From: Verrucomicrobiota bacterium | GTDB lineage: Bacteria; Verrucomicrobiota; Verrucomicrobiia; Verrucomicrobiales; Akkermansiaceae | Reading direction: 5' to 3' | Assembly (NCBI GenBank): GCA_026397725.1 | Contig: JAPLUI010000487.1 | Span: 1-64,000 of the forward strand | Length of the DNA stretch: 64,000 nucleotides | Shown here: positions 7,472-53,157 of the stretch, piece after piece | How positions within the stretch are numbered: the stretch's first letter is position 1 | Layout of the letters: each line of letters begins with the position of its first letter | Notes under the pieces: model-generated | What the model saw: the letters and a program-made list of their open reading frames with translations, nothing else | Told to the model about the DNA's origin: nothing | The model's database searches: none | Made by a program: the position numbers and the translations under genes

Positions 7472-10015
7472 ATGTCCGTGCTCCTCTATTTGCTGCCACT
7501 CGGGTTGATATTCGACTTGGTCGGGTATATGCCACCGGCGCTACGTTTGTTCCTGTTGTACGGATTGCTGGCGCTGCCGCTGTGCCTGAAGCCGTCGAAG
7601 CCGGCGGGGTGGCTGGCGTTGGGACTGGGGCTGGCGATGGTACTGCGTGCGGCATTGCCGATGCCGGTGGTGGCGGAGACGGTGTTGTTGCTGCTGGTCT
7701 ATCTGGCGATTTGGACGGTCATGGCGCCGGTTCCCCGGGCGCTGCGCCTGGGGGTGGTGGCGTATGCGTTCGTGCATCTGTATTTGTTCCTGTCGCCGGT
7801 GGGGCATCCCGCCCTCGAAATGATGGCGGTGGCGGGCAACCGGGTCTCGCATTGGCTGCTGGGGATGGTGGCGAATACGGTGGTGCATCTGCTCCTGTTC
7901 CTGTTGCCGGTGGGGCATCCCGCGTTCGAAATGATGACGTCGGCGGAAACCAGCATCTCGCTATGGATCGCCGGCGAGCCCTTCCATCTGGGTCCGACCT
8001 ATCAGAATATCGGTGGCTTCCTGCTGTTTCTGGTGCTGTCGATCTTCAGTTGGGATGGCACGAAGGTGGCAGCGCTGCGCACCGCGAGTTTCGTGCTGGT
8101 CGCCGTCCTGCTCAATGCGCTCGGGGCAGCGGTGTTGATCTACCGCGTGGATTTCGCCGCCGATTTTGCCTGGACCCTCAAGTTCCGGGATGCCTTGGGG
8201 TTCGCGGAGTTGTGGCAACGCTTGCAGGGATTGGCGGTGCTGGTGTTTCCGGCATTCCTGTTCCTGGCCTATCTGATCGCTTACCTGGTGCTCCATTACG
8301 CCAAGGCGCCGCTGCCCGCCGCGGCGGAGTCCGCCCCGATGCCGGGCTGGGCCGCGCTGCGGGATGAAGTGGTGAGCGGCAAGCGGCAGCTTGCGGTGGC
8401 CGCAGTGGCGGCCTTGGCGGTACTTGCCGTGGTGCCCCCGACGGCTTGGCGGCGTCCCGCGCCCTGTGATCTCATCTTTGTGGAGCGGGGAGTGGTGAGT
8501 TTCACCAAGCCTGACTACACGCGCTACGGTGAGGCCGCCGGCGGGATGTTCGGGATGTTTCCCGAATACGCCCGCTTGTTCGGCTGCAAGGCGGAGGTGG
8601 TCAAGGATGTCCCGGCCACCCTGGACCCGGGAAAAACCCTGGTTCTAACCAATCTCGATCTGGATTTCGGCAAGGAGACGCGGGCTCGGATCTGGGACTT
8701 CGTTGACCGGGGTGGCAAGCTGTGGGTGTTGGGAGATCACACCTTCATCAAGGAAGAGAAACTTCCCGACGGTCGGCTCGCCAAAGGGATCAATCATCTC
8801 AACGAGATGCTCGCCCCGACCCATATCTCTTTCAACAACGACTCGGCGCAGTTTTTCCCGCAAGGTTGGTTCCATTCGTATCGGTTTCCGCAAGGGACGC
8901 CCTTTGCCACGCTGCGGGACGACGCCGAGAACCGGCCGGGCATTCTGGTGGGCGCGTCCCTCAAGCTGGGGGTGCCCGCGCAACCGTTGGTGGTTGGCCG
9001 CTTCGGATACTCCGATTGGGGACTGGATGCTCCCGTGGGGGATCGCGGGTATCTTGGCGATTTCAAGTATCAGCCAAGCGAGCGGCTCGGCGACTTGGTG
9101 CTGGTGGCGGGAGAAGTCCACGGTCAGGGCAAGGTCCTGGTGTTTGGCGACACCTCCAGCTTCTTCAACAACAACTTGTCGCGGTCCTTCGAGTTGCTCC
9201 GCGCCAGCCTCGGGTGGCTCGGCGAGTCTAACGGGTGGGAGTTCCCGGCCTCCGTCGCAGGGCGTTGGTTGGCGGCCGTGCTGGTGTTGGGTTTTGTCGG
9301 GTTGGCGTGCTGGTGGCGGGCGGCCCCGGTCGGCGCGGCGGCCTTGTGCGCCGCCGGCTTGGTTTCCGCCGTCTCGCACGGGACCCGGGGACTGCCACCA
9401 TTCGACCAAGGATTTGCCCGCGAGCATCTGGCGGTGCTCGATTTTTCACACCAGCCGAATGCCTCGAAGCATTCGGCCATGGAGACCGGTTTGCACGGGG
9501 TGGCCATCAACCTCCTGCGCCATGAGCTGCTGCCCATCGTCGCCAATGAGTGGGACCCGGCAACCCTCGACTTGGCCCGTTACGTGGTCATGAACGCGCC
9601 GCGGCGGCCGATTACGTCCGGCGAACGGCGCGACCTGAAGCGCTTCATGAGACGCGGGGGAACCGTGATTCTTGGTTGCGGCTTCCTGGATTCCGAGGGG
9701 TGCCACGAGTTTCTCGAACGGTTTGGCTGCCAGATCGGCAACGTGCCGCTCGGGCGCTTCTTTGATCGGTCGGCCTTGGGGCAACCGGTCTCGTTCATGA
9801 GCGCGTGGCCGATCGAAAAGGTCCCGGACGACGCCAAGGTGCTGTGCGCCTATGACCCATGGGCGCTGATGGTTTCGGTGCCGTTGGGCAAGGGCGAACT
9901 CGTGCTGATCGGCGACTCGGAATTTCTGCACAACCGGAACGTGGAGGGGCACAAGAACCACGATCCGGCAAACACCGCATTCCTCAAAACCCTCCTGGAT
10001 TCAAGCACCCGATGA
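7472..10015 (+). CDS. Polytopic membrane protein with C-terminal GATase1-like/DUF4350-like domains
   Basis: Multiple hydrophobic helices in the N-terminal third, then ...IWDFVDRGGKLWVLGDHTF...HLNEMLAPTHI... and ...GKVLVFGDTSSFFNN...; second similar segment DLKRFMRRGGTVILGCGFLDSEG...GKGELVLIGDSEFL. Confidence 0.7.
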   Translation: MSVLLYLLPLGLIFDLVGYMPPALRLFLLYGLLALPLCLKPSKPAGWLALGLGLAMVLRAALPMPVVAETVLLLLVYLAIWTVMAPVPRALRLGVVAYAFVHLYLFLSPVGHPALEMMAVAGNRVSHWLLGMVANTVVHLLLFLLPVGHPAFEMMTSAETSISLWIAGEPFHLGPTYQNIGGFLLFLVLSIFSWDGTKVAALRTASFVLVAVLLNALGAAVLIYRVDFAADFAWTLKFRDALGFAELWQRLQGLAVLVFPAFLFLAYLIAYLVLHYAKAPLPAAAESAPMPGWAALRDEVVSGKRQLAVAAVAALAVLAVVPPTAWRRPAPCDLIFVERGVVSFTKPDYTRYGEAAGGMFGMFPEYARLFGCKAEVVKDVPATLDPGKTLVLTNLDLDFGKETRARIWDFVDRGGKLWVLGDHTFIKEEKLPDGRLAKGINHLNEMLAPTHISFNNDSAQFFPQGWFHSYRFPQGTPFATLRDDAENRPGILVGASLKLGVPAQPLVVGRFGYSDWGLDAPVGDRGYLGDFKYQPSERLGDLVLVAGEVHGQGKVLVFGDTSSFFNNNLSRSFELLRASLGWLGESNGWEFPASVAGRWLAAVLVLGFVGLACWWRAAPVGAAALCAAGLVSAVSHGTRGLPPFDQGFAREHLAVLDFSHQPNASKHSAMETGLHGVAINLLRHELLPIVANEWDPATLDLARYVVMNAPRRPITSGERRDLKRFMRRGGTVILGCGFLDSEGCHEFLERFGCQIGNVPLGRFFDRSALGQPVSFMSAWPIEKVPDDAKVLCAYDPWALMVSVPLGKGELVLIGDSEFLHNRNVEGHKNHDPANTAFLKTLLDSSTR
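7741..7965 (+). repeat. Imperfect in-frame tandem duplication, 111 bp (37 aa) period
   Basis: LGVVAYAFVHLYLFLSPVGHPALEMM / LGMVANTVVHLLLFLLPVGHPAFEMM; GCCGGTGGGGCATCCCGC at 7795 and 7906. Confidence 0.85.
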
Positions 10016-12438
10016 TTTTTCTCTCGATTCTGGCCAAGACCTTCGCGCTGGCACTGGTGCCGCTCCACCCGTGGCTCGCGGTGCTGTGTTGGGTGGGCGG
10101 CGCGCTGGCCGACTGGTGGGTGGCACAGCAGACCGCAGAGGGTACGGCCTGCGCCAAGGTGCTGGGAAACGTGGCCTTGCTCAACCTCGCGGCCGTGGTG
10201 CTCGGGTGGGCGGCAATGGAGGGCTGCGATTATGCGGCGATGCGCTGGAAGGATGGCATCCCGGTTCTCGCCAGTCTGGTGGGCGGCCTGCTCAGCCTCA
10301 CCGGGCTTTCGGTGGGGACCCACGGGGGGCTGGTCTATCTAACCACGATGGCCGGACCGCTGGAGTTCGCGGCGTCGATCGACCGCATGGGCTTGAAAGT
10401 GCCCTTGCTGTTGCTGGTGTTCAGCGGGGTGTGGCTGGGTTGGGCGGAAACCACGCTCCGGGACGTGCTGCGCAAGCTCGGGGTCATCGCGGGGATGCTG
10501 CTGGTGGTTACGGTCATTTGCGCGGCTTGCCAGATACTGCTTGCGGTGGGCTTGTTCGATTTCGTCGGCTACGAGAGTGAGGAGCTTCCCTTCCGTCCGT
10601 TCATGGGCGATGCGGCAGGGGCCTGGCCGGTCATGAACAAGACGGTGGGGCTCAGGGTGGCTCTGGCAGGCCTGCTGGCGGACTATGCGAAACGGGTGTT
10701 CTTATTGCTATTGTTCGATGGAGTATGGAGGTACCTCCCATTCCTGCTGGCGACCGGGGTGCTGTTCGGGCGCTTGCTGGCGCCGCCAGCCGTGCCGGTC
10801 AGTCCGCCATTCGCGTTGCCGCGAGCGCTGCGCTGGGGTGCCGCCCCACTCCTGCTGCTGCTTGCCACCATCGCCTGCTGGGAACCGCTTGGCACCCCCA
10901 AGGACGGCAAGGTCGTCATCAGCACCTATCACTCCCAGTGGTCACGCACCGACCGACCCTACGACCGCGATTGGTATGGTGCCGATTCAGGATACAACTA
11001 TGCCTGCATGAAACGGTTTTTTGAGGTCTTCTATCCGGTGGTCGAGGCGGGTGGTCCGTTGCTTGACAAGGATCTGGAAGGGGCGAGCACGCTGGTGATC
11101 TATGATCCCGACCGGCGTTTCAGCCAGGAGGAGATCAAGCTGGTCCGGAAGTTCGTCAGTGGCGGTGGCGGCCTGTTCGTGATCGGCGACCACACCAACG
11201 TGTTCGGTTCTACCTCGCACTTGAACGAGTTGTGCGAGCCGTTCGGCTTCCAATACCGGGACGACGTGCTGTTTGACCTGGACGAGGATTTTCATCAGAT
11301 GATGGATGCGCCGTGGTGGCCATCCCGGTTCTGGCACGGGATGTCGATGTTCAAGCTGCGCGGGCCCACCTCGCTCCGGCCAACCTCCGGCTGGACCCGC
11401 AGCGTCTGTCAGGTGGGGCATTCCAAAGGGGTGCGGGCGATCTACTCGGTGAACAATTTCTATCCGCCGCCACACGACGATCCCAAGATGAAGACGGGAA
11501 CTTTCTGTGTGAGTGCCGCCTCGCGTTATGGGCAGGGGCGGGTGATGGCCTGGGGCGACAGCACGGTTTTTTCCAACTTCGAGATTTTCTATCCGGGCAA
11601 ATACGAGTACTTGCTGAACTCGCTGGACTGGCTCAACCATCGGGACGGCATGCTGCCGGCCCTAGGTCGGAGGATCGCGGCCCTGGTCCTGGTGGCCGGA
11701 GTTGCGGGGTTTCTCCTGCGTCGGCGCGAGCCGCGGGTCTGGCTGGTCACGGCGGTGCTGCTGGTCGCGGTGCTGGGCGTGGCACGGCTGGCAAGCTCGT
11801 TAGCGGAACAAGAGCAGGCCGCATTTCCCAAGCCGATGCGGCCGAGCGAGTGGGTCGTGTTTGCCGCGCACGCCCCGGATCCGGGGCACAACCTGCGGGG
11901 CTTCGTCAGCAACGAACCCTACGACCAGCGCTACGAGGTGTTCATCCAGTGGGTCTTGCGCACCGGGGCATATCCCGGATTCCAATTGTTAGATAAGGGG
12001 CTCCGCAACGGCCTGTATGACCACCTGCGTGAGGCGGATTCGAGCACCACCGCCCTGGCCCTGATCGTCCGCAAGACGGACGACCTCCCGCAGTTGGACG
12101 AATTGAGGGCGATTCCCCTGCGGGCGAAGGATCCGCTGCTCCTCATGTTCGCCTCGACGATTCCCGCAGCGCAAGCCGAGGCAAGCATCAAACGCTCCGG
12201 GCTCGTGAAAAACGCCGAAGCCTTGGCGCAGATCGCCGGCGCATGGCCGAACGGAGAGGTGGTGATCCGCGATGGCGAACGGCGCGTGATGGTGCTTGCC
12301 GGTGCCGAGCGCTTCAGCGATCAGGCGATGGGGATTTCCGAAAAGGTGGTGCCCGACGCGGGACAGCGGGTTCTTTTCAACCAAGCCTTCGGCCTCATCG
12401 ACCGCTTGTTCGGACGGGTTGCCAGCGGGGGAAAATGA
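10012..12438 (+). CDS. Paralogous polytopic membrane protein with GATase1-like domain
   Basis: ATGA overlap with upstream gene; LVRKFVSGGGGLFVIGDHTNVFGSTSHLNELCEPFGFQYRDD and GRVMAWGDSTVFSNFEIFYPGKYEYLLNSLDWL parallel the upstream protein. Confidence 0.7.
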   Translation: MIFLSILAKTFALALVPLHPWLAVLCWVGGALADWWVAQQTAEGTACAKVLGNVALLNLAAVVLGWAAMEGCDYAAMRWKDGIPVLASLVGGLLSLTGLSVGTHGGLVYLTTMAGPLEFAASIDRMGLKVPLLLLVFSGVWLGWAETTLRDVLRKLGVIAGMLLVVTVICAACQILLAVGLFDFVGYESEELPFRPFMGDAAGAWPVMNKTVGLRVALAGLLADYAKRVFLLLLFDGVWRYLPFLLATGVLFGRLLAPPAVPVSPPFALPRALRWGAAPLLLLLATIACWEPLGTPKDGKVVISTYHSQWSRTDRPYDRDWYGADSGYNYACMKRFFEVFYPVVEAGGPLLDKDLEGASTLVIYDPDRRFSQEEIKLVRKFVSGGGGLFVIGDHTNVFGSTSHLNELCEPFGFQYRDDVLFDLDEDFHQMMDAPWWPSRFWHGMSMFKLRGPTSLRPTSGWTRSVCQVGHSKGVRAIYSVNNFYPPPHDDPKMKTGTFCVSAASRYGQGRVMAWGDSTVFSNFEIFYPGKYEYLLNSLDWLNHRDGMLPALGRRIAALVLVAGVAGFLLRRREPRVWLVTAVLLVAVLGVARLASSLAEQEQAAFPKPMRPSEWVVFAAHAPDPGHNLRGFVSNEPYDQRYEVFIQWVLRTGAYPGFQLLDKGLRNGLYDHLREADSSTTALALIVRKTDDLPQLDELRAIPLRAKDPLLLMFASTIPAAQAEASIKRSGLVKNAEALAQIAGAWPNGEVVIRDGERRVMVLAGAERFSDQAMGISEKVVPDAGQRVLFNQAFGLIDRLFGRVASGGK

Positions 12439-12473
12439 GCTAAATTGAATCCAAACCACGTAGATTCAAATCG

Positions 12474-13505
12474 ATGTCAATGAAAACCAAAGGAATGCAG
12501 GCGCTCGCTCCCGCCATGGTATGGCTGGTGCCGGCGGCAGTGGCCGGGGTGGCGATGGTGGCGGTGATCAGCTACATCCGCTCCGAGGAAACGCATGCCG
12601 CAAGCGGCTCGCCGCTCTACGGCCAGGCAGTGCGGGAGGCCATTGATGGGCTCAAGAATCCCGGCGCAAAGCCGGTCGCCGCCAGGCCGCCCCTGCCGGC
12701 AGGGCTCTCGGCAGCCGAGGTCTATTGGTGCGAGCAATGCAAAGCCTACCACAAAGGTCAGCCCGGCCAGGCCCAGCCTGCGGCTGCGACTCCGGCACCG
12801 GTCGCGGGAGCTGCGGCGACGCCGATAGCGCAGCCGGACAGCCCGATCCCGCCACTCCCGGCAGGTCTTGCTGCGGCTGACTACTACTGGTGCGCAAACT
12901 GCAAGACCTATCACAAACGCCAAGCTGCCGAGGGCCAGCCTGCTGACGCGGCACCTCCTCCGCTCGCAGGGCACTCCGCGCCGCCCGCGGCGGTGACCCA
13001 GCCGGCCGCCACCATCCCGCCACTCCCGGCAGGTTTTGCGGCGGACGATTACTACTGGTGCCCGAGCTGCAAGGCCTATCACCAGCGCCAACCCGCGGCA
13101 CCGGTCCCCGCAAGCGGGACGGCACCCGTTGTCCCGGCACCCGTTGCACCCGTTGTCCCGGCACCCGTTGCCCCGGCACCCGTTGCCCCGACGCCCGTTG
13201 TCCCGGCACCCGTTGTCCCGACGCCCGTTGCGCCGGCGCCCGTTGCGCCCGTACCTGCCGCGCCGGCAGCAGAGGCTGCTCCGCTTGTACCTGCCACTCC
13301 CGCTGCGCCTGTTGCACCTGTTGCGCAGCCACCCGCAGCGCCCGTTACACCTGCGCCACCCGGCACGCCCGTTACACCTGTTGCGCAGCCACCCGCAGCG
13401 CCCGTTACACCTGCGCCACCCGGCACGCCACCCGTTGCGCAGCCACCCGGCACGCCCGTTACACCCGCGCCCGCGCCACCCGCCGCGCCCGTTCAGAATT
13501 CCTGA
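12474..13505 (+). CDS. Membrane-anchored protein with three YYWCxxCKxYH motifs and a long Pro/Ala/Val tail
   Basis: N-terminal hydrophobic helix; PPLPAGLSAAEVYWCEQCKAYHKGQ, PPLPAGLAAADYYWCANCKTYHKRQ, PPLPAGFAADDYYWCPSCKAYHQRQ; then VAPAP/VVPAP-type tail. Confidence 0.75.
   Translation: MSMKTKGMQALAPAMVWLVPAAVAGVAMVAVISYIRSEETHAASGSPLYGQAVREAIDGLKNPGAKPVAARPPLPAGLSAAEVYWCEQCKAYHKGQPGQAQPAAATPAPVAGAAATPIAQPDSPIPPLPAGLAAADYYWCANCKTYHKRQAAEGQPADAAPPPLAGHSAPPAAVTQPAATIPPLPAGFAADDYYWCPSCKAYHQRQPAAPVPASGTAPVVPAPVAPVVPAPVAPAPVAPTPVVPAPVVPTPVAPAPVAPVPAAPAAEAAPLVPATPAAPVAPVAQPPAAPVTPAPPGTPVTPVAQPPAAPVTPAPPGTPPVAQPPGTPVTPAPAPPAAPVQNS
13320..13440 (+). repeat. Approximately 60-bp direct repeat within the Pro-rich tail coding sequence
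   Basis: TTGCGCAGCCACCCGCAGCGCCCGTTACACCTGCGCCACCCGGCACGCC occurs twice at 60-bp spacing, then a partial third. Confidence 0.85.
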
Positions 13506-13700: not shown

Positions 13701-14336
13701 TCACTCGACGAGTTTGTTGTTGATGGCGTAGCGCGTCAGATCGGCATTGGTGCGCATATTCATCTTCTCGAGGATGCGCGTGCGGTAGGTAGAGACGGTG
13801 TTGACGCTGAGGCACAGTTCGCCCGCACTCTCTTTGACCGTTTTGCCAGCACCGATGAGCCGGAGAAGCTCAAACTCCCGATTGGACAATCGCTCGTGCA
13901 ACTGGTGGCCCTCGGCGTCGCCCAGCACGGCCGCCAACTGTTCCGCCAGCACGCTGCTGACGTAACGGCCGCCCGCGAGAATGCGCCCGATGGCTCGGAT
14001 CAGTTCGGCACCCGCACTGGCCTTGGTCAGGTAGCCGCTCGCGCCGGCCCGAAACGCTCGCACGGCGAACTGCGGTTCCTCGAACATGCTCAAGATCAAC
14101 ACCGGAATCATGGGGAGTTGCGCCCGGATCTCCTTGAGCACGTCCAAGCCGCCGCGGCCAGGCATGGAAATGTCGAGAATGACGATGTCCCATGGGTGGC
14201 TGAGTGCTCTCTCAAGGGCCTGCTGGCAGGTCTCGGCCTCGCCGAACTCTGTCTCCGGGTATGCCTGCGCCAGCAGTAGCTTGAGCCCGCTGCGCAATAT
14301 CGCGTGATCGTCTGCCAGTAGTATTCTCATGAGCAA
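13701..14336 (-). CDS. NarL/FixJ-family response regulator
   Basis: MRILLADDHAILRSGLKLLL...DIVILDISMPGRGGLDVL...LSNREFELLRLIGAGKTVKESAGELCLSVNTVSTYRTRILEKM (LuxR HTH). Confidence 0.95.
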   Translation of the reverse strand: MLMRILLADDHAILRSGLKLLLAQAYPETEFGEAETCQQALERALSHPWDIVILDISMPGRGGLDVLKEIRAQLPMIPVLILSMFEEPQFAVRAFRAGASGYLTKASAGAELIRAIGRILAGGRYVSSVLAEQLAAVLGDAEGHQLHERLSNREFELLRLIGAGKTVKESAGELCLSVNTVSTYRTRILEKMNMRTNADLTRYAINNKLVE

Positions 14337-16415
14337 TCTCCGGGTTCTGCACTCCGTGTGGTACTGGGAATCCGTACCCGCACCTTCACGGCGGCTCCCT
14401 TGCCAGGTGCGTTGAGAAATTCCACCGTGCCGCCAAACGCGCCGATGCGCTCGCGCATGCCGAGCAGCCCGAGCGACTGCGGCCCGGAGTGGACCTGCGG
14501 GGCGAACCCCCGTCCGTTATCCTGAATGTCCAGTTCCACCTCACTGCCGACGATGGCCAGCCTGACCTCCACCTGCGTCGCCTGCGCGTGCCGGATCACG
14601 TTGGTCAGCGCCTCCTGCACAATCCGAAACAGAGTCAACGCGAAGTCCTGATCCAGCTCAACATCACCCTCAGGCAACACCAGCGTCCCAAGCATGCCCG
14701 TGCGTTTTGCGGTATCCTCCACCTGCCACTCGATGGCCGCCACCAAGCCCAGATTGTACAAGACACTCGGCCGCAACGCGGCACAAATCGTCTGCGTCTG
14801 TTCGGTCAGGCGTTCGACCAGCGGCACCATGGCCACGATCCGGTCGGTCAACCGTGCAAGATCGGGTGCCTTGGCGGACTGCAGATGGCGGTCCATCCAC
14901 ATCAAATCGATTTGCAGGGCGGTCAAATGCTGCCCGAAATAGTCGTGCAGTTCGCGGGAGAGGATTGCCCGCTCTTCTTCGCGCACGGCTTGCAGGCGAG
15001 CCATCAGGACGCGCAGGTCGGCGGCGGACTGGCGCAAGGCCTCCTCCGCCAGCTTGCGCATCAGGGCCTCACCGAGGTGTGCGGCGACACCTTCCAGGTG
15101 TTCAACCGTTTCGAGGGTGAAACGTCCTTTGCGCCGGTCGTTGAGCTGAATCAGGCCGCCCACATTGTCGATGTTTCGAATCGGCACCAAGGCCACCGAG
15201 GCATAGCCGTGATTGATGCACTGGGTGCGTGGCCTCAACCCGGGATTCTGCGCGGGCGGAAGGTCGAGCAGCGCAAAGGAATCGTTGGTCCAGTGGCTGC
15301 CCCCCCCGCGTGGATGGCGGGTTGGAGGAGTCGGACTGTCCGGAGATGACCAGCCCACAGGTACATTCCAGACAAGGCTTGCCGTCTTGGTCCCCGCACA
15401 GTCCCCGCTCCGCACCGCTCCCGAGCAGGGTGTTTTCCGTCAGCAGGAAATCCTTGGAGAAGCCTTCCTGGGCGAAATACGGGAAGTCCTCCCCGTCCTG
15501 CAGGCGAATGCCCACGGCATCGACCCCGGTTCGCGCCTTCAAGGTGCTGACAACGCGCTGAATCAAATCCTGCAGAGGTTCCGGCTTCTGGAGGAGTTGT
15601 AGAATTTCGCTCTCCATGTTGCGATAGACCTCCAGCCACTTGCGCTTGGTGATGTCGCGCAGGAAAGTCACCACGCGCCCGCCCTCGATGGGCCGGTACT
15701 TGATGCTGACTTCGACGTCAAAATGGCTGCCATCCTTGCGGCAGTGCGTGGATTCAAAACGATCTTCGCCCTGCTCGATGAGCTGCTGGATCCGGGCGAC
15801 GACGTTAGCAGCCGTCTCGTCGGCTTCGAGGTCGCTGACGCGCATGCTCAGCAATTCCGCCACGCTGTAGCCGCTCATCTGACAATAGGCCGCATTGACT
15901 TCCAGCAGCCGTCCCTGCACGTCCACCAGCCAGAAGCCGTCCATGGCCGTCTCGATGATGGTCCGGTGCCGCTCCTCGCTTTCCCGGATGCTACGCTCAG
16001 CCTGATGCTTGTAGAGCGCAATCTCGATGACGATTCTGAGTTCGCGATCCTCGAAGGGTTTGAGGATATAGCCATAAGGCTCGGCCTCCTTGGCACGCTG
16101 GAACGTTATCCCCTCACCATAGGCGGTCAGAAACACGACCGGCAGCCGCAGGGCGCTGCGCAGCTCCTGGGCCGCCGTGATGCCGTCCGTCGCGCCTTGC
16201 AGGTGAATGTCCATCAACACCAGATCCGGCAGGATCTCGGCGGCCAGGGCGAGGGCTTGTTCGCCATTGGGGACGGCGCCGAGCACGTGGTATCCCAAAT
16301 GAGTTAGGCGGACGGCGAGATCTGCTGCCACGATGGCTTCGTCTTCGACAATCAGAATGCGTGACTGGTTCATCGGGTGAAAGGTGGTTCTGGGTGCGGA
16401 AAGCAATGGGTTCAT
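14327..16415 (-). CDS. Hybrid sensor histidine kinase (REC-PAS-GAF-HisKA_3-HATPase), split by an apparent frameshift at 15300-15307
   Basis: ORF 15102..16415 gives REC (ILIVEDEAIVAADLAVRL...DLVLMDIHL), PAS and the start of GAF; ORF 14327..15415 gives the GAF end, RLQAVREEERAILSRELHDYFGQHLTALQIDL (HisKA_3) and HATPase (NVIRHAQATQ...DNGRGFA). Confidence 0.85.
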
Positions 16416-25145: not shown

Positions 25146-27968
25146 TCATGGCTTTTGGTAAAGGAACATCACTTGGCCGGGGGTGTAGGACCAGGTGTCG
25201 TTGAGGTAGCCACCGTTCCCGAGGTATCCACCCCAGACGAGCATCTCGCTGCCGGTCCACAATGCGGTGTGGCCGGAACGGGCGAAGGGCACGTCAGTGG
25301 TACTCATCGCCGTCCAACTGTCGGTCGTTGGACTATAGCGCCCGCCGTCGTTGAACAAGCCGCTGCCCCATCCGCCATATCCGCCCCAGACGATCATTTC
25401 GCTGCCCGTCCACACCGCCGTGTGCGCGGTGCGTGCGGCGGGTGTGTTCGCCAGAGTGTTCGGAATCGCGGACCAGGTCCCGGCACCTGTCGGGTTGTAG
25501 CGGCCGCCGTCGTCGAACACGCTCAAGTTACTCCCTCCGCCCCAGACGATCATCTCGCTGCCCGTCCACACCGCCACGGGATTCTCGCGCATGGCGGGTG
25601 CGCCGGTGGTGGTGACCTCGGCCCAACGGTTGGCCGCCGGATTGTAGCGCCCGGCGTTGGGCGGATAGCTGCCGCCGTCGCCGTAGCCGCCCCAGACGAT
25701 CATCTCGCTGCCGGTCCACACCGCCGTGTGGGAGCCGCGCGGGGCTGGAGTGTCGGCAAGAGTGTTTGGAATTGCGGTCCAAGCCCCGGACCCCGCCGGA
25801 TTGTAACATCCGCCGTCGTTCAAACTGCCGCCGTTGTTCCACCCACCCCAGACAATCATCTCGTCGCCCGTCCACACCGCCGTGTGCCATTGGCGGGGGG
25901 CGGGCGCGCCGGTGGCGGTGACAACGGTCCAACTGTCGGTCGCCGGGGAATAACAGCCCCCGTCGTTCAAATAGCCGCTCGCGCCAGCGCCGCCCCAGAC
26001 GATCATCCCGGTGCCGGCCCACACCGCCGTGTGAAGGAAGCGCGCACCGGGTGCGTCGGCAGTGGCGACTGCCGTCCAGGTATTGGTCGCCGGATTGTAG
26101 CGGCCGCCATCGTTCAAATAGCTGCCGCCGCTGCCGTAGCCGCCCCAGACGATCATTTCGCTGCCGGTCCAGACTGCCGTATGCGTACTCCGCTTGGTGG
26201 GTGCGCGGCTGACCTCGATCACTGTCCAAGTGTTGGCCGCCGGGTCATAACGACCGCCGTCATTGAGGTAATTGCTGCCTCCGCCATTTTTCCATCCACC
26301 CCAGACGATCATCTCGCTGCCGGTCCAGACCGCCGTGTGAAGGTTGCGTGCGGCCGGCCCACCGGCGGCGGTGACCGCCGCCCAGGTGTTGGACGTCGGA
26401 TTGTAGCGCCCGCCGCTACTGCTGCCCCACACGATCATCGCGCCACCGGTCCACACCGCCGTGTGATACTCGCCCGCAAAGGGTGCGCCTGGGGTAGCGA
26501 CCGCCGTCCACGAATCAGTCGCAGGATTGTAGCGACCGCCATCGAAGAACAAGGTGCCCATCGAGCCGCCCCAGACTATCATCTCGCTGCCTGTCCAAAC
26601 CGCCGTGTGATGTTCGCGGGCGGAGGGCGCTCCGGTGGTGGTGACTGCCGCCCAACTGTTGGATACCGGATTATAGCGCCCGCCGTCGTTCAAACCCGCG
26701 CTGCCGTTCCAGCCACCCCAGACGATCATCTCGCTGCCGGTCCAGACCGCCGCGTGATCCGAGCGAACGCCGGGGGCGCCAGCAGTCGTCATCGTTGCCC
26801 AAGTGTCGGTCGCAGGATCGTAACGCCCGCCGTCGGCGAGATAGCCGGCGCCACCGAATCCCCCCCAGACGACCATTTCGCTACCAGTCCACACTGCGGT
26901 ATGATGGAAGCGTCCCGCAGGAGCCCCGTTGGTCGCCACCCTCGTCCAATTGTTGGACGCCGGGTGGTAGCGGGCGCCCGCGTTGGAAACGCCGACTTGG
27001 ACTTGCCCGCCCCAGACGATCATCTCGGAACCGGTCCACACCGCCGTGTGAATGTAACGCGCGGCGGGGGCGTCGGTAGTGGGCAACCCCGTCCAACTGT
27101 TGGCTGCCGGGTTGTAGCGACCGCCGTCGCCAAGGACGCCACCGCCGCCGTAGCCGCCCCAGACGATCATCTCGGAACCCGTCCACACCGCCGTGTGATA
27201 GAAGCGCACAGCGGGAGGCGTGCCATTGAAGCGCTCCTGCCAGTGGTCACTCAGGACGGTGGTCCCGATCTTCACATAGCCGGCGTTGACCAAGTCCGCG
27301 TTGTCGCTCGCGGAGAGGATGATTCCGCCTGCGGCCACGCCGGCCTGGCCGTCGGCGTTGAGGTTGGCGGTCGCCGCACCGGCGGCGAGCTGGGTGCTCG
27401 TGACTGCGGCGGGGCTGAGGTGGGTGGTTTGGACCGCGTTGGCAGCCAAGTGCGTGCCGGCCACCGCACCGGCGGCGAGCTGGGTCGCGCCCACCGCACC
27501 ATTGGCGAACTTGGCGCTGGTGATCGCGCCGTCGCGAACTTCCTCGGCCGTCATCGCGTAGCCCGCCGCCGCGATGCGTTGGTCCGGCGTGAGCTGTTGC
27601 CAGCCATGGCTGCCGTCGTTGAACCAGACGCTCAGACGCAGGTCGGGGTGGCTGAACACGCTTGGCGGAATGGCGGTCATGTTGGTGAGGGTGGGGTCGC
27701 CTAACAACACCGAGTAGAGGCCGTTGGTTACCGTGAGCCTAACGGCGCTGGCGGGCGGGCTGCCGCCGCTGCTGGTGCCGTCGTTGCTCCAATAGCTCAC
27801 GGTGCCGGCTTCGCCGACCAGCGCGAACTTGAACTGGCCGAGGCCGTTGAAATTCGTACCGCCGACGGCGATGCGGCCCTGGTAGTTGATGAGCTGCGGC
27901 ACCTGCGCGGGCAGGCTGCCGGCGAGCAAGGCGATGCCCGCGAAGGTGGCGAGGATGAAGGTTTTCAT
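25146..27968 (-). CDS. Kelch-type repeat secreted protein, 14 repeats, with N-terminal QLAAGAV-type repeat region
   Basis: 14 units of HTAVWTGSEMIVWGG...GGRYNPAANSWTAV...GAPAAR counted by eye; N-terminus VPQLINYQGRIAVGGTNFNGLGQFKFALVGE. Confidence 0.9.
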   Translation of the reverse strand: MKTFILATFAGIALLAGSLPAQVPQLINYQGRIAVGGTNFNGLGQFKFALVGEAGTVSYWSNDGTSSGGSPPASAVRLTVTNGLYSVLLGDPTLTNMTAIPPSVFSHPDLRLSVWFNDGSHGWQQLTPDQRIAAAGYAMTAEEVRDGAITSAKFANGAVGATQLAAGAVAGTHLAANAVQTTHLSPAAVTSTQLAAGAATANLNADGQAGVAAGGIILSASDNADLVNAGYVKIGTTVLSDHWQERFNGTPPAVRFYHTAVWTGSEMIVWGGYGGGGVLGDGGRYNPAANSWTGLPTTDAPAARYIHTAVWTGSEMIVWGGQVQVGVSNAGARYHPASNNWTRVATNGAPAGRFHHTAVWTGSEMVVWGGFGGAGYLADGGRYDPATDTWATMTTAGAPGVRSDHAAVWTGSEMIVWGGWNGSAGLNDGGRYNPVSNSWAAVTTTGAPSAREHHTAVWTGSEMIVWGGSMGTLFFDGGRYNPATDSWTAVATPGAPFAGEYHTAVWTGGAMIVWGSSSGGRYNPTSNTWAAVTAAGGPAARNLHTAVWTGSEMIVWGGWKNGGGSNYLNDGGRYDPAANTWTVIEVSRAPTKRSTHTAVWTGSEMIVWGGYGSGGSYLNDGGRYNPATNTWTAVATADAPGARFLHTAVWAGTGMIVWGGAGASGYLNDGGCYSPATDSWTVVTATGAPAPRQWHTAVWTGDEMIVWGGWNNGGSLNDGGCYNPAGSGAWTAIPNTLADTPAPRGSHTAVWTGSEMIVWGGYGDGGSYPPNAGRYNPAANRWAEVTTTGAPAMRENPVAVWTGSEMIVWGGGSNLSVFDDGGRYNPTGAGTWSAIPNTLANTPAARTAHTAVWTGSEMIVWGGYGGWGSGLFNDGGRYSPTTDSWTAMSTTDVPFARSGHTALWTGSEMLVWGGYLGNGGYLNDTWSYTPGQVMFLYQKP

Positions 27969-29822: not shown

Positions 29823-32703
29823 TCAGGGTTTCTGATAGAGGAACATCACTTTGCCGGGAGTGTAGGACCAGGTGTCGTCGAGGCAGCCGGCGTCGCCTTG
29901 TCCGCCCCAAACGAGCATCTCGGTGCTGGTCCACACCGCCGTGTGCCCGTAACGTGCGGCGGGGGCGGCGGCAATGGTGACCGCCGCCCAGGTGTTGGAC
30001 GATGGACTGTAACGGCCGCCGTCGTTCAACCAGCCGCTGCCCACTCCGCCCCACACGAGCATCTCGGAACCGGTCCACACTGCGGTGTGAAGATAACGCG
30101 CGGCGGGTGCGCCGGCGGTGGGCAGCGTTGTCCAAGTGTCGGTTGCCGGATTGTAGCGCCCGCTGTCTTGAGAAGTAACGCCGTAGTCGCTTACTCCGCC
30201 CCAAACAATCATATCGCTGCCGGTCCATACCGCAGTGTGAGTGGTGCGTGGGCTGGGAGTGTTCGCCAGCGTGTTTGGAATTGCCGTCCAACTCCCGGTG
30301 CCGGACGGGTTGTAACGCCCGCCGTCGTTCAACCCCCCGCCGCCCATTCCGCCCCAGACGATCATCTCGCTCCCGGTCCACACCGCCGTGTGGTCAAAGC
30401 GCGCGGCGGGAGTGTTCGCCAGCGTGTCCGGGATCGCGATCCAAGTCCCGGCACCCGCCGGATTGTAGCGCCCGCCGCCGTCAGCAGGAGTGCCGACGTC
30501 ACCGCCGCCGCCCCAGACGATCATCTCGCTGCCGGTCCACACCGCGGTGTGAAGACGGCGTGCTGCGGGCGCACCGGCCGTGGCGACCGCCGTCCAACTA
30601 TTGGCCGCCGGATTGTAACCCGCGCCATCGTTGAAATATACGCTGCCATCCCAGCCGCCCCAGACGATCATCTCGCTGCCCGTCCAAACCGCCGTGTACT
30701 CTCTGCGCACGGCGGGGGCACCGTTGTCCGGCAGTGCCGTCCAACGGTTAGACGCCGGATGGTACCGCTTGCCGTCGTTCAACCAAGTGCCGATGCTATC
30801 GGCCCCCCCCCCAGACAATCATTTCGCTGCCCGTCCACACCGCCGTGTGGTGAATACGCTTGGTGGGTGCGCGGCTGGCTTCGATCGCCGTCCAGGTGTT
30901 GGCCGCAGGGTTGTAGCGGCTGGCGGTGTAAAGGGCGGCCGTGCCGTCGTAGCCGCCGCAGACGATCATCTCGCCGCCGGTCCACACCGCCGAGTGGTAC
31001 ACGCGTGCGTCCGGCGCACCAGTGGTGGCAAGCGCCGACCAGGTGTTGGCCGTCGGATTGTAGCGGCCGCCGTCGTTGAAATAGCCGCCGTCGCCGAAGC
31101 CGCCCCAGACGAGCATCTCGGAACCGGTCCACACCGCCGTGTGTTTCTCGCGCCCGCGGGGCACGCCGGTGGTGGTGACCGCCGTCCAACTGTTGGAGGC
31201 GGGATGGTAGCGGCTCCCGTCGTTCAGATAGCCGCTCTCGCCGTTGCCGCCCCAGACTACCATCTCGGTGCCGGTCCACACTGCCGTGTGATGATCGCGG
31301 GCGGCGGGCGCGCCGGTGGTGGCCAGCGCCGTCCAGGTGCTGGTCGTCGGGTGGTAGCGACCGCCGTCGTTCCAATCGGTGCTGCCATCCCAGCCGCCCC
31401 AGACGATCATCTCGCTGCCAGTCCAAACCGCCGTGTGGAAGAACCGGCCGCCGGGCGCGTCGGTCGTGGTCACCCTCGCCCAGGTGTTGGAGGTCGGATT
31501 ATAGCGGCCGCCGTCGTCAAGCACGCCGACGCTGCCCCAGCCGCCCCAGACGACCATTTCGGAGCCGGTCCACACCGCGGTGTGATAGAAACGGGCGGCG
31601 GGTGCGGCGGCGGCCGGTAGCGCCGTCCAAGTGTTGGACGCCGGGTCGTAACGGCCGCCATCGTCTGAGATGCCGCCTTGGATCTGGCCACCCCAGACGA
31701 TCATCTCGGTGCCGGTCCAAACCGCGGTGTGAACATATCGCGCGGCGGGTGCCCCGGCGGTGGGCAGCGCCGTCCAACGGTTGGCTGCCGGATCGTAGCG
31801 ACCGTCGTCGTTGAGGTAGTCGGTGCCGTCAAAGCCGCCCCAAATGATCATTTCGCTGCCCGTCCACACCGCCGAGTGGTAGTAGCGTGCGGTGGGTCCG
31901 GAACTGCTGACGCGTGGTTGCCAGTTGTCGCTCAGGACGGTCGTGCCGATCTTCACATAGCCGGCGTTGAGCAAGGCCGAGTTCTCGGTGGCGGACAGGA
32001 TCACGCCGCCGGCGGCCACGCCGGCCTGGCCGCCGGCGTTGAGGTTGGCGACCGCCGCGCCGGCGGCGAGTTGGGTGCCCGTGACCGCACCGGCGCTGAT
32101 GTTGGCGGTCTGGACCGCGTTGGCAGCCAACTGCGTGCTGCCCACCGCGCCGGCGGCGAGCTGCGTAGCGCCCACCGCGCCGTTGGCGATCTTGGCGCTG
32201 GTGATGGCACCGTCGCGGACGCCCTCGGCCAGCATTGCGTAGCCCACCGCCGCGATCCGCTGGTCGGGCGAGAGGAGCTGCCAGCCGTGGCTGCTGTCGT
32301 TGAACCAGACGCGCAAGCGCACGTCGGAGTGCTCGAACACGCTCGGCGGGAGCGGGGTCATGTTGGTGAGCGTGGGGTCGCCTAACAAAACCGAGTAGAG
32401 GCCGTTGGTCACCGTGAGCCTGACGGCGCTGGCGGGTTGGCTGCCGCCGCTGCTGGTGCCGTCGTTGCTCCAGTAGGTGACGGTGCCGGCCTCGCCGACC
32501 AGCGCGAACTTGAACTGGCCGAGGCCATTGAAGTTGACGCCGCCGACGACGACGCGGCCTTGGTAATTGACGAGCCGGGGCACCTGGGCATGGCTGCCGA
32601 GGGCAGTGGCGAGGAGGATCGCGATGGTCAGGATGGCAGACCATGCGGGGCGGATGGATGCGCCCGAGGTGGCGCACGGAACTTGCGGAGTGTGCGTGTT
32701 CAT
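29823..32703 (-). CDS. Kelch-type repeat secreted protein, 14 repeats when read across an apparent frameshift at 30803-30812
   Basis: ORF 30796..32703 (8 repeat starts) plus ORF 29823..30818 (6 repeats); shared N-terminal domain. Confidence 0.85.
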
Positions 32704-48857: not shown

Positions 48858-50618
48858 ATGAAGACAATTGGTTTGCTCCAAATCTTGTGGGTGCTCGTGC
48901 CTTGCACGGTCGCGGCGAAGGTCGAGTTGCCCCGCGTGTTTGGCGAGGGCATGGTCATGCAGCGCGAGAAACCGTCACGCGTCTGGGGGTGGGGTGACCA
49001 GGCGGATGCGATCACGGTCACGTTCAACGGACAGACCAAGACGACCACCGTTGGCGACGACGGGAAATGGCTGCTGGCGCTCGACCCGATGCCGGCCAAT
49101 GCCAAGCCCCAGACAATGACAGTCAAGGGCGGGAAAGATGTCGTGACATTCCAGAACGTGCTGATCGGGGACGTGTGGCTGTGCAGCGGGCAGAGCAACA
49201 TGGAGGCGGCCGCCAAAGACATTATCAACGCGGATCTGGATATGCCCCAGGCCGGCATCCCCACCATCCGCTGCCTCACCATCCCCCTGAGTTCAAGCCC
49301 CACCGCGCTCGACAATTTCCCGGTCGAGGAGCGCAATCCGTATTATGTGGAACTCAAGGGCGTGTGGCGGGTCAGTTCACCAGAGACGGCGAGGGATTTC
49401 CCCGCCGTGGGCTATCACTTTGCACGCCTGGTAACGGCCATCACCGGAGTGCCCATCGGCCTGATCGACAACTCGTGGGGCGGCAGCGTCGTGGAAACCT
49501 GGGTGTCCCGGGCCTCACTGGAGCAGATTCCCGAGGTGATGCCGTTGTTCAAGGAATATGACGCGGAGGCGGCCGCCTATGACCATGAAGCCGCACTCGC
49601 CCGCAAAATGGCCGGCTGGAAACTGCAGGCCGAAAAGGCCGCAGCCGCCGAACAAAAGCCCCCCCCGAAACCGGAGGTGCCCAAGACCTATATCTATGAT
49701 CAAGGCTATCCGGGCGGATGCTTCAACGCACTGATCGCGCCGATCCGGAAATTCGCGATCAAGGGCGCCATCTTCTATCAGGGCGAAAACAACTGCGTCG
49801 CCGGCCAGGGCCGGCCCAACCTCTATCAGAAAACCTTTCCCGCGCTGATCACGGATTGGCGCCAGGCCTTCGATGACCCGGAGCTGCCGTTCTGCATCGT
49901 CGAGTTGTCTTCCTTCGGCGGGCCGGACGACCCGAACGAACCGGAAACCAGCATCCTCCACAAGGCGTCCGGCGTGCGCGAGGCACAACTCAATGCCCAT
50001 CTCAAATACAAGAACACGGGGATCGTGACCACCTTTGATCTCGGCCACGTCCAGATGCACTCGCCCTTCAAGCGGCCGATCGCCGAGCGCGCGGCACGGT
50101 GGGCCCTGGCCACGGTCTATCAGGTCAAGGGCATCACCTATAACATCCCGATCATGGAATCCTGGAAAAAAGACGGCAAGCGCATCCTGCTGACCTTCAC
50201 CAAAGGGAGCTATCCGAGTTCACCCTTCGGCATGGCGGTGCCGCCCAAGGGCTTCGTGATCGCGGGCAAGGACCGCCATTTCTATCCGGCCCAAGTGACT
50301 GACAACGACGATGGAACCTTTGCCGTCTCCAGTGAGTGGGTACCCGTACCGGAGGCGGTGCGCTACGCCTGGGGCGTCCATCCGGTCGGCAACTTCGGCA
50401 ACCGCGCCGGCCCGACCCCGCCGTTCCGCACCGACGAGTGGCCGGCATGGAATGATGCCCCGATCGGCCCCAGGGGCACTCCGGAGCAACGGAATCCGGA
50501 GGTGCCGACCAGGGAGACCGCCGAAGCCCAGGCCTGGGAGCGCAAGGCTGCCGCCGCCAGGAAGGTGTTGGAGGATTACGACGCGTGGCAGAAGAAACGC
50601 AAGCCGGCCAGGAACTGA
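48858..50618 (+). CDS. Sialate O-acetylesterase-like (SASA) esterase
   Basis: VFGEGMVMQREKPSRVWGWGDQADAITV, VLIGDVWLCSGQSNMEAA, IKGAIFYQGENN. Confidence 0.9.
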   Translation: MKTIGLLQILWVLVPCTVAAKVELPRVFGEGMVMQREKPSRVWGWGDQADAITVTFNGQTKTTTVGDDGKWLLALDPMPANAKPQTMTVKGGKDVVTFQNVLIGDVWLCSGQSNMEAAAKDIINADLDMPQAGIPTIRCLTIPLSSSPTALDNFPVEERNPYYVELKGVWRVSSPETARDFPAVGYHFARLVTAITGVPIGLIDNSWGGSVVETWVSRASLEQIPEVMPLFKEYDAEAAAYDHEAALARKMAGWKLQAEKAAAAEQKPPPKPEVPKTYIYDQGYPGGCFNALIAPIRKFAIKGAIFYQGENNCVAGQGRPNLYQKTFPALITDWRQAFDDPELPFCIVELSSFGGPDDPNEPETSILHKASGVREAQLNAHLKYKNTGIVTTFDLGHVQMHSPFKRPIAERAARWALATVYQVKGITYNIPIMESWKKDGKRILLTFTKGSYPSSPFGMAVPPKGFVIAGKDRHFYPAQVTDNDDGTFAVSSEWVPVPEAVRYAWGVHPVGNFGNRAGPTPPFRTDEWPAWNDAPIGPRGTPEQRNPEVPTRETAEAQAWERKAAAARKVLEDYDAWQKKRKPARN

Positions 50619-50652
50619 TAACAAAGAACAAACAACCAGGAACCCCCATCAC

Positions 50653-53157
50653 ATGACCAACAGAACCATCAGCAAAACAGGATCTCTGCATCTTGCCGCC
50701 ATCTTCGTCACCATTGCCAGCATGACCGGCACTTCGCTCGTCGCGGCCGTGCCTCCGCCGCCACCGCCAGATCTCACCCAGGACAACACGGTCGATCGCA
50801 AGTTGACATACAACCTTGGTGCCACGGGACTGCGCGGATGGATTTACTCCAAGCCGGCAAATCACTTCGAGGGCCTCCAGGGTCGGACCACGGCGGCCAG
50901 CCGGCAGATTCTGGTGACCCACGTCGGGGCCAAGTCGCCGGCGGATGGCGTGATCAAAGTGGACGATGTGATCCTCGGCACCGGCGGCAAGCTGTTCACC
51001 GACGATGCCCGCAAGAGCATCGCCGTGGCGATTCAGGAGGCCGAGAAGGAAACCAATGGAGGCCTCCTGAAGCTCACTATCTGGCGTGCCGGCAAGACCG
51101 GAGAGGTACCACTCAAGCTGAGGGTCATGGGGACCTACAGCGACACCGCTCCCTACGCTTGCCCCAAGTCAAAACGCATCCTTGAGGAAGCCTGCAAGGT
51201 TCTCGCGAAAGAGCCGTTGAACGCAGGCTGGTGTGGAGCGGTCAACGGCCTGGCGCTGATGGCGACCGGCAATCCCGAGTATCTGCCCCGCGTGAGGGAG
51301 TTCGCCCATAAGGTCGGGCCGACCACGCTGAAGCTGGAATTGAAAGACGGGATGGTGATCTGGGACTGGGGCTACCGGAACATCTTCCTCTGCGAGTATT
51401 TCCTCCTCACCGGCGACCAGGAAGTGTTACCTGCCATCAATGAATATACCATCACCCTCGCCAAGGCACAAAGCATGTATGGCACCTTCGGGCACGGCAT
51501 TTCCCGCCTTACCGCCGATGGCAAGCTCCACGGCTCGTTCCCGCCCTACGGACCGGTGAACATGGCGGGACTGCCTGGCAATCTAGCGATCATCATGGGC
51601 GGCAAATGTGGCGTGAAGGATCCCGAAGTCGGCCCGGCGATTGAGCGGGCGTCCGGTTTTTTCGGCTACTTCGTGGACAAGGGTGCCATCCCCTACGGCG
51701 AGCATGAGCCCTGGCCATTCCACGAGAACAATGGCAAGAACTCCCTCTCCGCCCTGTTGTTCGGCGTCCAGGGAAACCGAATCAGCGAAACACAATTCTT
51801 CGCGAAAATGGCGGTCGCCGGCTACCGGAGCCGGGAATGTGGGCACACCGGGCAAGGATTCAGTTATTTGTGGAGCGCCCTGGGGGCCAATGTCGGCGGC
51901 CCGTCCGCAGCGGCGGCCTTTTTCAAGGAAGCCTCATGGCACCTCGACCTGGTGCGGCGCTGCGATGGATCGTTCACCTATGACGGCGGCGAGCAATACG
52001 GTCCCGGCAGGACGGATGACGACACCTACTACGGCAACAGTAGTTACAACGGCCTGAGTCCGACCGCTTCGTATGTCCTAACATATTCGCTGCCGCTGAA
52101 GAAGCTTGTCATCACCGGCAAGGGCGCGAATGAAGCAAACTGGCTGACCAAGCAGGAGACGGCGGACGCCATCGCCTCCGGCCGATTCGATACGGACCGC
52201 AAGCAGATGACCGCGAAGGAACTCGTGGCGGCGTTCAGCGACTGGTCGCCAATCGTTCGCGGCTGGGCGGCGGAGGAGCTGGCCAATCGCCCCGAGGCAA
52301 AGGCGATGGTGCCCCAACTCATCGCCATGGCGGAAGGCAACGATGCCCATGTCAGCCAGGGGGCCTGCGAGGCGCTCGGCTACCTCAAGAGTCCCGCAGC
52401 GCTGCCGGTGTTGGTTCGTCTGCTGGAAACCCGGGACCGCTGGGTACGGGTCAAGGCCGCCAATGCCTTGAAGATGATGGGAGACGCCGCCAAGCCGGCC
52501 GTTCCCGAAATGCTCAAGGCGGTCACCCAAACGGCGGAGCCCCCCCAGCCGATCACCTGGGCCGATCCCATTCAGATCAGCCAGGGCCAACTGGCCGCAG
52601 CCTTGTTCCAAGGACCGTTGCGAACGTCGATCAAGGAAATCGACCCCAACATGCTCCACACGGCTATCAGAGCCGGTTTGAATAATTCGGATAGCAGGGC
52701 CAGGGGCCAGTTGAGCGACACGATCAAGCTGCTGAGCCTGGAGGACGTTCGCGCGCTGGGGCCTGACATCCTCGCCGCCATCAAGGAGTCGGCCCCTGCG
52801 AACACGATGTTCGCGGATGGCATCCGTGATGCGGGATTGAATGTATTGGCGAAGTATCGCTTCCGCGAGGCCATGGCGCTGTGCCTTGAAACGATGGAAA
52901 TCGAAACCTGGGGAAAGTCACGCCGGATCACAAGTCATCTGAAGATACTTCAGTCTTACGGAGGCGCGGCCAAGGAGGTGCTGCCGTTGCTGGACCAGCT
53001 CGATAAGGACCTGCAGCAGCACCGCGAGGCAAAAATGCTCGCCCCTCAGCTCGAACTCCTCCACGAGGTGCGGTCCGCCATCGTGGCCGCTACCGAGCAA
53101 CCCGAGCTGCGGACCCTTGCGTCAGTGCAGCCCAAGGGCGAGCCGGTAAACAGGTGA
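50653..53157 (+). CDS. Secreted protein with PDZ-like region and C-terminal HEAT repeats (DUF6288-like)
   Basis: LVTHVGAKSPADGVIKVDDVILGTGGKLFTDDAR (PDZ-like), AKAMVPQLIAMAEGNDAHVSQGACEALGYLKSPAALPVLVRLLETRDRWVRVKAANALKMMGDAAKPAVPEM (HEAT). Confidence 0.65.
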   Translation: MTNRTISKTGSLHLAAIFVTIASMTGTSLVAAVPPPPPPDLTQDNTVDRKLTYNLGATGLRGWIYSKPANHFEGLQGRTTAASRQILVTHVGAKSPADGVIKVDDVILGTGGKLFTDDARKSIAVAIQEAEKETNGGLLKLTIWRAGKTGEVPLKLRVMGTYSDTAPYACPKSKRILEEACKVLAKEPLNAGWCGAVNGLALMATGNPEYLPRVREFAHKVGPTTLKLELKDGMVIWDWGYRNIFLCEYFLLTGDQEVLPAINEYTITLAKAQSMYGTFGHGISRLTADGKLHGSFPPYGPVNMAGLPGNLAIIMGGKCGVKDPEVGPAIERASGFFGYFVDKGAIPYGEHEPWPFHENNGKNSLSALLFGVQGNRISETQFFAKMAVAGYRSRECGHTGQGFSYLWSALGANVGGPSAAAAFFKEASWHLDLVRRCDGSFTYDGGEQYGPGRTDDDTYYGNSSYNGLSPTASYVLTYSLPLKKLVITGKGANEANWLTKQETADAIASGRFDTDRKQMTAKELVAAFSDWSPIVRGWAAEELANRPEAKAMVPQLIAMAEGNDAHVSQGACEALGYLKSPAALPVLVRLLETRDRWVRVKAANALKMMGDAAKPAVPEMLKAVTQTAEPPQPITWADPIQISQGQLAAALFQGPLRTSIKEIDPNMLHTAIRAGLNNSDSRARGQLSDTIKLLSLEDVRALGPDILAAIKESAPANTMFADGIRDAGLNVLAKYRFREAMALCLETMEIETWGKSRRITSHLKILQSYGGAAKEVLPLLDQLDKDLQQHREAKMLAPQLELLHEVRSAIVAATEQPELRTLASVQPKGEPVNR

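Follow-up and report, generated by a model that had tools for sequence, protein, structure and literature searches.

Two adjacent paralogous genes for polytopic membrane proteins, referred to here as A and B, are strongly linked to secreted proteins that carry a short N-terminal motif (the SP motif), a periodic array of cysteines, or both, and, together with the gene C that follows them, they apparently belong to an undescribed system found in Bacteria and Archaea. The three genes lie in the window, that is, the whole stretch of 64,000 nucleotides analysed, where the following features were delimited:

7472..10015, + strand: gene A, 847 aa; polytopic membrane protein with two GIFT/GATase-like domains
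7472..8437, + strand: gene A, membrane domain at the N-terminus, with some 9-11 helices
8444..9253, + strand: gene A, GIFT-like domain 1, containing GDHT
9377..10012, + strand: gene A, GIFT-like domain 2, preceded by a helix pair
10012..12438, + strand: gene B, 808 aa; paralogue of gene A
10888..11649, + strand: gene B, GIFT-like domain 1, with invariant GGGL...GDHTNVF
11818..12435, + strand: gene B, GIFT-like domain 2, from the AF2 model and profile comparison
12474..13505, + strand: gene C, 343 aa; signal-anchor-like helix, SP motif, three CxxCxxxH units and Pro/Ala-rich tail
12495..12584, + strand: gene C, hydrophobic segment, aa 8-37
12603..12665, + strand: gene C, N-terminal partner motif SGSPLYGQAVREAIDGLKNPG (motif search, E 1.7e-5; the only match in this genome)
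12687..12770, + strand: gene C, repeat unit 1, VYWCEQCKAYH
12849..12932, + strand: gene C, repeat unit 2, YYWCANCKTYH
13017..13100, + strand: gene C, repeat unit 3, YYWCPSCKAYH
13101..13502, + strand: gene C, Pro/Ala/Val-rich low-complexity tail, with tandem repeats in the DNA

The coordinates, order and strand given for the three genes in a preliminary description of this DNA are correct, as are the ATGA overlap of genes A and B, in which the ATG at 10012 lies inside the gene A stop codon, and the gap before gene C, which begins 35 nt past the end of gene B. The longest open reading frame available for gene B begins upstream, at 9859; the start was set at 10012 because it is common to the orthologues ('M(I/S)FLSxLxKT'). 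Among 99 relatives, four congeners (G036, G057, G026 and G018) carry A-B at 60-81% identity to the window proteins, each with a YWCxxC gene C directly after the pair and with unrelated flanks; together with the present genome (G000) they form one clade and are counted once. Conserved in these four congeners and in further MAGs, the operon is no chance arrangement.

The surroundings of the operon in the window include, on the minus strand at 14327-16415, a sensor kinase apparently split by a frameshift, with overlapping reading frames in different frames at 15102-16415 (receiver/PAS start) and 14327-15415 (GAF, HisKA_3 and HATPase), and next after it a LuxR-type response regulator (13701-14336). 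A run of large repeat proteins at 20105-47002 includes Chlamydia-PMP, DUF5122, cadherin, HYDIN-type and laminin-G domains, as well as two minus-strand Kelch-repeat proteins (25146-27968 and 30796-32703) with very high KLHDC2/attractin beta-propeller scores, and a DUF6288 protein with HEAT repeats (PF19805, 5.7e-138) lies at 50311-53157 on the plus strand. In two congeners (L083, 13739-14197; L087, 13728-14186), a secreted thioredoxin-like protein is encoded about 1.3 kb downstream of gene B on the same strand; it was not seen in the others and was not retained as a member of the system.

Genes A and B encode chains of the same order, in which the polytopic domain at the N-terminus is followed by two GATase-like domains with a helix pair between them, and the soluble domains of A and B, as well as the first and second domains, are homologous in profile comparisons, in line with the paralogous proteins with polytopic N-termini initially proposed; the GDHT...HLNE(M/L) pattern attributed to both is indeed present in both. 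AF2 models were obtained with pLDDT 83.5 and pTM 0.87 for gene A, and pLDDT 87.7 and pTM 0.89 for gene B. When their soluble parts were compared with the PDB by Foldseek, the matches were the GIFT domains of IFT52, OST48 and site-1 protease (S1P, 8uw8), the best structures being 5fmr/5fms with a TM score, normalised by target, of about 0.60-0.78. These domains are confidently predicted to be GIFT-like (IFT52/OST48 type). The earlier label 'GATase1-like' holds for the fold and fails as a placement with the glutaminases: neither family alignment contains an invariant or nearly invariant cysteine, which makes glutaminase activity unlikely. At the family level, DUF4350 (PF14258) matches the C-terminal domain of gene A with 46.6 bits (6e-12; Pfam gathering cut-off 30.4) and gene B with 27.6 bits, under that cut-off, and a search of the operon proteins against NCBIfam returned no match.

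A profile scan of GTDB genomes with gene B recovered 79 loci spread over many phyla, the archaeal Thermoplasmatota among them, and most of these loci are on MAG contigs. Among named relatives, Akkermansiaceae MAGs come closest to gene B, which makes that family the most likely one for the host. The A/B families occur in Verrucomicrobiota, Planctomycetota, Firmicutes, Thermodesulfobacteriota, Latescibacterota, Bacteroidota and Thermoplasmatota. An A/B-family gene lies immediately upstream of gene B in 65 of the 75 usable loci, in Bacteria and Archaea alike, and no second neighbour family is nearly as constant across these 75. Carriage of gene B on plasmids was also considered, and no match was found. 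In a genome from another family of the same order (G078), the membrane part and the GIFT part are encoded by different genes; a 524-aa protein of TxCPxxx heptads is encoded upstream of them, at a distance of a single gene of 198 aa, and downstream comes a gene-C-like protein that has two WCxxCxxxH units.

What accompanies the pair in more distant genomes is a class of secreted protein. A periodic-cysteine protein is encoded within 3.5 kb of A-B in 22 of 64 distant loci, in which 23 cysteine-periodic reading frames fall within that distance, as against one in the 390 kb farther out (p 8e-7), and control DNA yielded none in 196 kb. The repeats themselves vary (TCxxx hexads and heptads, TTCAPx, CxxxC, DPxxC with a spacing of 10-14), and the domains found in these partners, such as SLH, T9SS-tail, FlgD-Ig, beta-propeller, and RHS or LTD, are typical of surface proteins. 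Cysteine periodicity is not universal, since the partners in Thermoplasmata carry the SP motif and hold only 2-3 cysteines. In six archaeal loci (L106, 12447-13508, and other Thermoplasmata), this cysteine-poor partner is followed by another conserved gene, which encodes about 347 aa.

The SP motif, SP[LIF][FY]x3[LV]xx[AST][ILV], is located past the hydrophobic segment in many partners. It was matched 33 times near A-B versus three times far from it, a comparison biased toward near matches by seeds drawn largely from A-B neighbours; none of 2476 shuffles scored above 14 bits, and the motif recovered three loci outside the seed set (L115, L125 and L109), adjacent to A-B and cysteine-rich. A second round of the seeded model drew in the thioredoxin-like protein as a false positive. 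Searched genome-wide, the motif gave one strong match in each of seven A-B-positive genomes and no match below E 0.1 in A-B-negative genomes, where, as in the other genome searches, a limited number of candidates was scored per genome and negatives are not absolute. Homologues of gene C were likewise met only alongside A-B in the genomes examined, as expected if the three genes belong together.

A further association concerns giant proteins of TxCPxxx heptads, about 1,390-1,800 aa long with 110-176 CP dipeptides, which a heptad profile detected in all five congeners with the operon, counting the present genome, on other contigs or near the operon (contig C140 in the present genome); the profile also picked up the 524-aa protein of G078, and there are no heptads within the 64,000-nt window. 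Heptad arrays are present in six of six A-B genomes, versus two weak single matches in eight operon-free genomes. In a sample of 390 genomes of the phylum, strong arrays were found only in G000, G496 and G577, and these three are all among the eight genomes positive for the A/B families (Fisher 6e-6). In G496, A-B is immediately preceded by the heptad gene, and heptads also adjoin A-B in two further loci (L088 and L090). The assembly of the present genome amounts to 12.56 Mb with 5.5% contamination, about twice the congener size, and may hold more than one organism; despite this possible mixture, the pairing of operon and heptads is reproduced independently by the congeners. In this genus the motif is found on gene C and the heptads on the giants. 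A diverged SP motif was sought in the giants, and the position-specific scoring matrix was unsupportive for seven of the eight scored, the eighth matching at another place. In G577, a single protein on another contig joins the SP motif to CP heptads and has an LTD-like domain as well, which argues that gene C and the giants work together.

How might a membrane pair act on such partners? We lean slightly towards a view of A-B as a membrane platform dedicated to capturing the SP motif and to assembling a cysteine-rich protein on the cell surface or anchoring it there. A and B would form a two-subunit platform for one class of secreted protein, with GIFT domains placed outside the membrane because the partner is secreted and the loop between the last two helices of gene B is positive (RRE), the charges of the other loops being weak evidence of topology. 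The external GIFT domains would recognise the SP motif of the partner on its exit from Sec, and A-B would build the cysteine-repeat protein into a layer or fibre at the surface, whether by holding, assembling or anchoring it. The motif-bearing partner in this genome would be gene C, and the heptad giants on another contig the likely structural polymer. The envelope assembly or export suggested at the outset is borne out as regards the linkage to surface proteins; recognition, assembly, anchoring or export by A-B are what we infer from it. Three genomes with A-B relatives in which heptads were not detected (G295, G588 and G108) count against the platform, as do the cysteine-poor partners of Thermoplasmata and the lack of the SP motif in the heptad giants of this genus. 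A more specific version, possible and in our view doubtful, would make A-B the core of an unrecognised surface-protein maturation machine that Archaea share with Bacteria. Its exosortase-like pair, catalytically altered and equipped with GIFT domains, would recognise the SP motif at the N-terminus and process cysteine-periodic proteins, covalently or structurally, into a layer outside the cell.

The same structural evidence can be read in terms of chemistry. A-B could be a modification system whose exosortase-like core and GIFT domains decorate the partners' Thr/Ser-Cys-rich repeats with a glycan or lipid, an explanation we consider unlikely. OST48 of oligosaccharyltransferase is among the best Foldseek matches (6s7t_G, for gene B, and 8b6l_N), Thr and Ser are abundant beside Cys in the repeats, and sugar binding has been proposed for GIFT domains (PMC7226087); those of A and B could be catalytic or sugar-binding, which is a point against the platform. 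The membrane profile of gene A scored 31.1 against exosortases, with the alignment falling on the active-site region, whereas the highest of 120 block-permuted nulls reached 22.2. TIGR04178 (exo_archaeo) was matched with E 0.005 by one of 54 members. However, the exosortase catalytic cysteine (ACSG) is missing in both A and B, the aligned place being occupied by TY[QS][NG] in the gene A family (LGPTYQN in the window) and by EKLG in the gene B family (IDRMG in the window), and profiles built from distant members only gave scores within the null for both proteins. The gene B profile (23.8) falls inside its own null, PF09721 is absent among the 25 families listed, and of the catalytic Cys, Arg and His looked for, an arginine is kept in most gene B members. 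Exosortase membership of A and B was thus rejected on the missing cysteine and the fragile profile signal; that the gene A membrane domain may be an exosortase relative lacking the catalytic cysteine is suggestive only. A recurrent glycosyltransferase or lipid enzyme beside A-B, which modification would lead one to look for, was not found.

The cysteines could alternatively point to redox or metal (zinc, copper) handling by A-B and C, with the periodic cysteines as ligands and gene C as a metal-loading adaptor, which we judge improbable as an account of the whole. All six cysteines of gene C fall inside its three repeat units, the partners are very dense in cysteine, and in two gene C orthologues the second cysteine of unit 1 is exchanged for histidine, which favours metal ligation over redox for these units; of the two roles initially offered for them, metal binding is on this exchange the more likely. 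The units are probably zinc-knuckle-like (CxxCxxxH), and no zinc-finger or other Pfam family reached its cut-off for gene C. The membrane helix, the PPLPAG units and the Pro/Ala-rich stretch of the preliminary description were all found in gene C, and its YYWCxxCKxYH triple repeat stands in number, with the correction that unit 1 reads VYWC. Against a metal function for the system as a whole, the recurrent neighbours of A-B include no standout metal transporter, metal regulator or conserved thiol oxidoreductase, and the repeat periods (4, 6, 7 and 10-14) differ too widely to suggest one metal site. It is more improbable still that A-B serves an ABC transporter as a GldG-like accessory and has cysteine-rich neighbours by accident. 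In favour of this are sub-threshold matches to ABC_transp_aux (PF09822, GldG; 15.9 bits for gene A and 31.5 for gene B; cut-off 34.7); against it, a recurrent ABC ATPase or permease family beside A-B was not found, and the associations with cysteine-periodic and SP-motif proteins are far over background.

The A-B linkage ties two poorly annotated membrane families to otherwise unexplained giant cysteine-periodic secreted proteins, and offers a testable entry to the role and surface delivery of these giants. It also adds a prokaryotic setting for GIFT domains, the eukaryotic ones sitting in intraflagellar transport and N-glycosylation complexes. No single characterised system in Pfam, NCBIfam, the PDB or the open literature matches all three genes, and the open literature yielded no Cys-Pro heptads, DUF4350 operons or similar system; novelty is argued on this basis, in support of the undescribed system first suspected. 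One comparison for the partners is with the YTV proteins, cysteine-rich cell-wall proteins of planctomycetes whose genes are stated to be confined to Planctomycetales (PMC8567305); as cysteine-rich wall proteins from a related superphylum they resemble the A-B partners, with no A-B link described. The DUF4350 (PF14258) and ABC_transp_aux (PF09822) models span part of one domain, with no described function of the A-B kind. The GIFT proteins (GldG, IFT52, OST48/Wbp1 and the GATase-like domain of site-1 protease) share the fold of the A and B soluble domains, and OST48 and GldG are, like these domains, membrane-tethered; A and B differ in carrying two GIFT-like domains per chain on a polytopic domain, in forming a paralogous pair, and in coming with a cysteine-repeat partner instead of an ABC transporter or oligosaccharyltransferase. 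The exosortases and archaeosortases (PF09721, TIGR04178) are likewise polytopic platforms for secreted surface proteins with a short sorting motif, but they rely on a catalytic cysteine that A-B lacks, and their motif is a C-terminal tail, in contrast to the N-terminal SP[LIF][FY] of the A-B partners.
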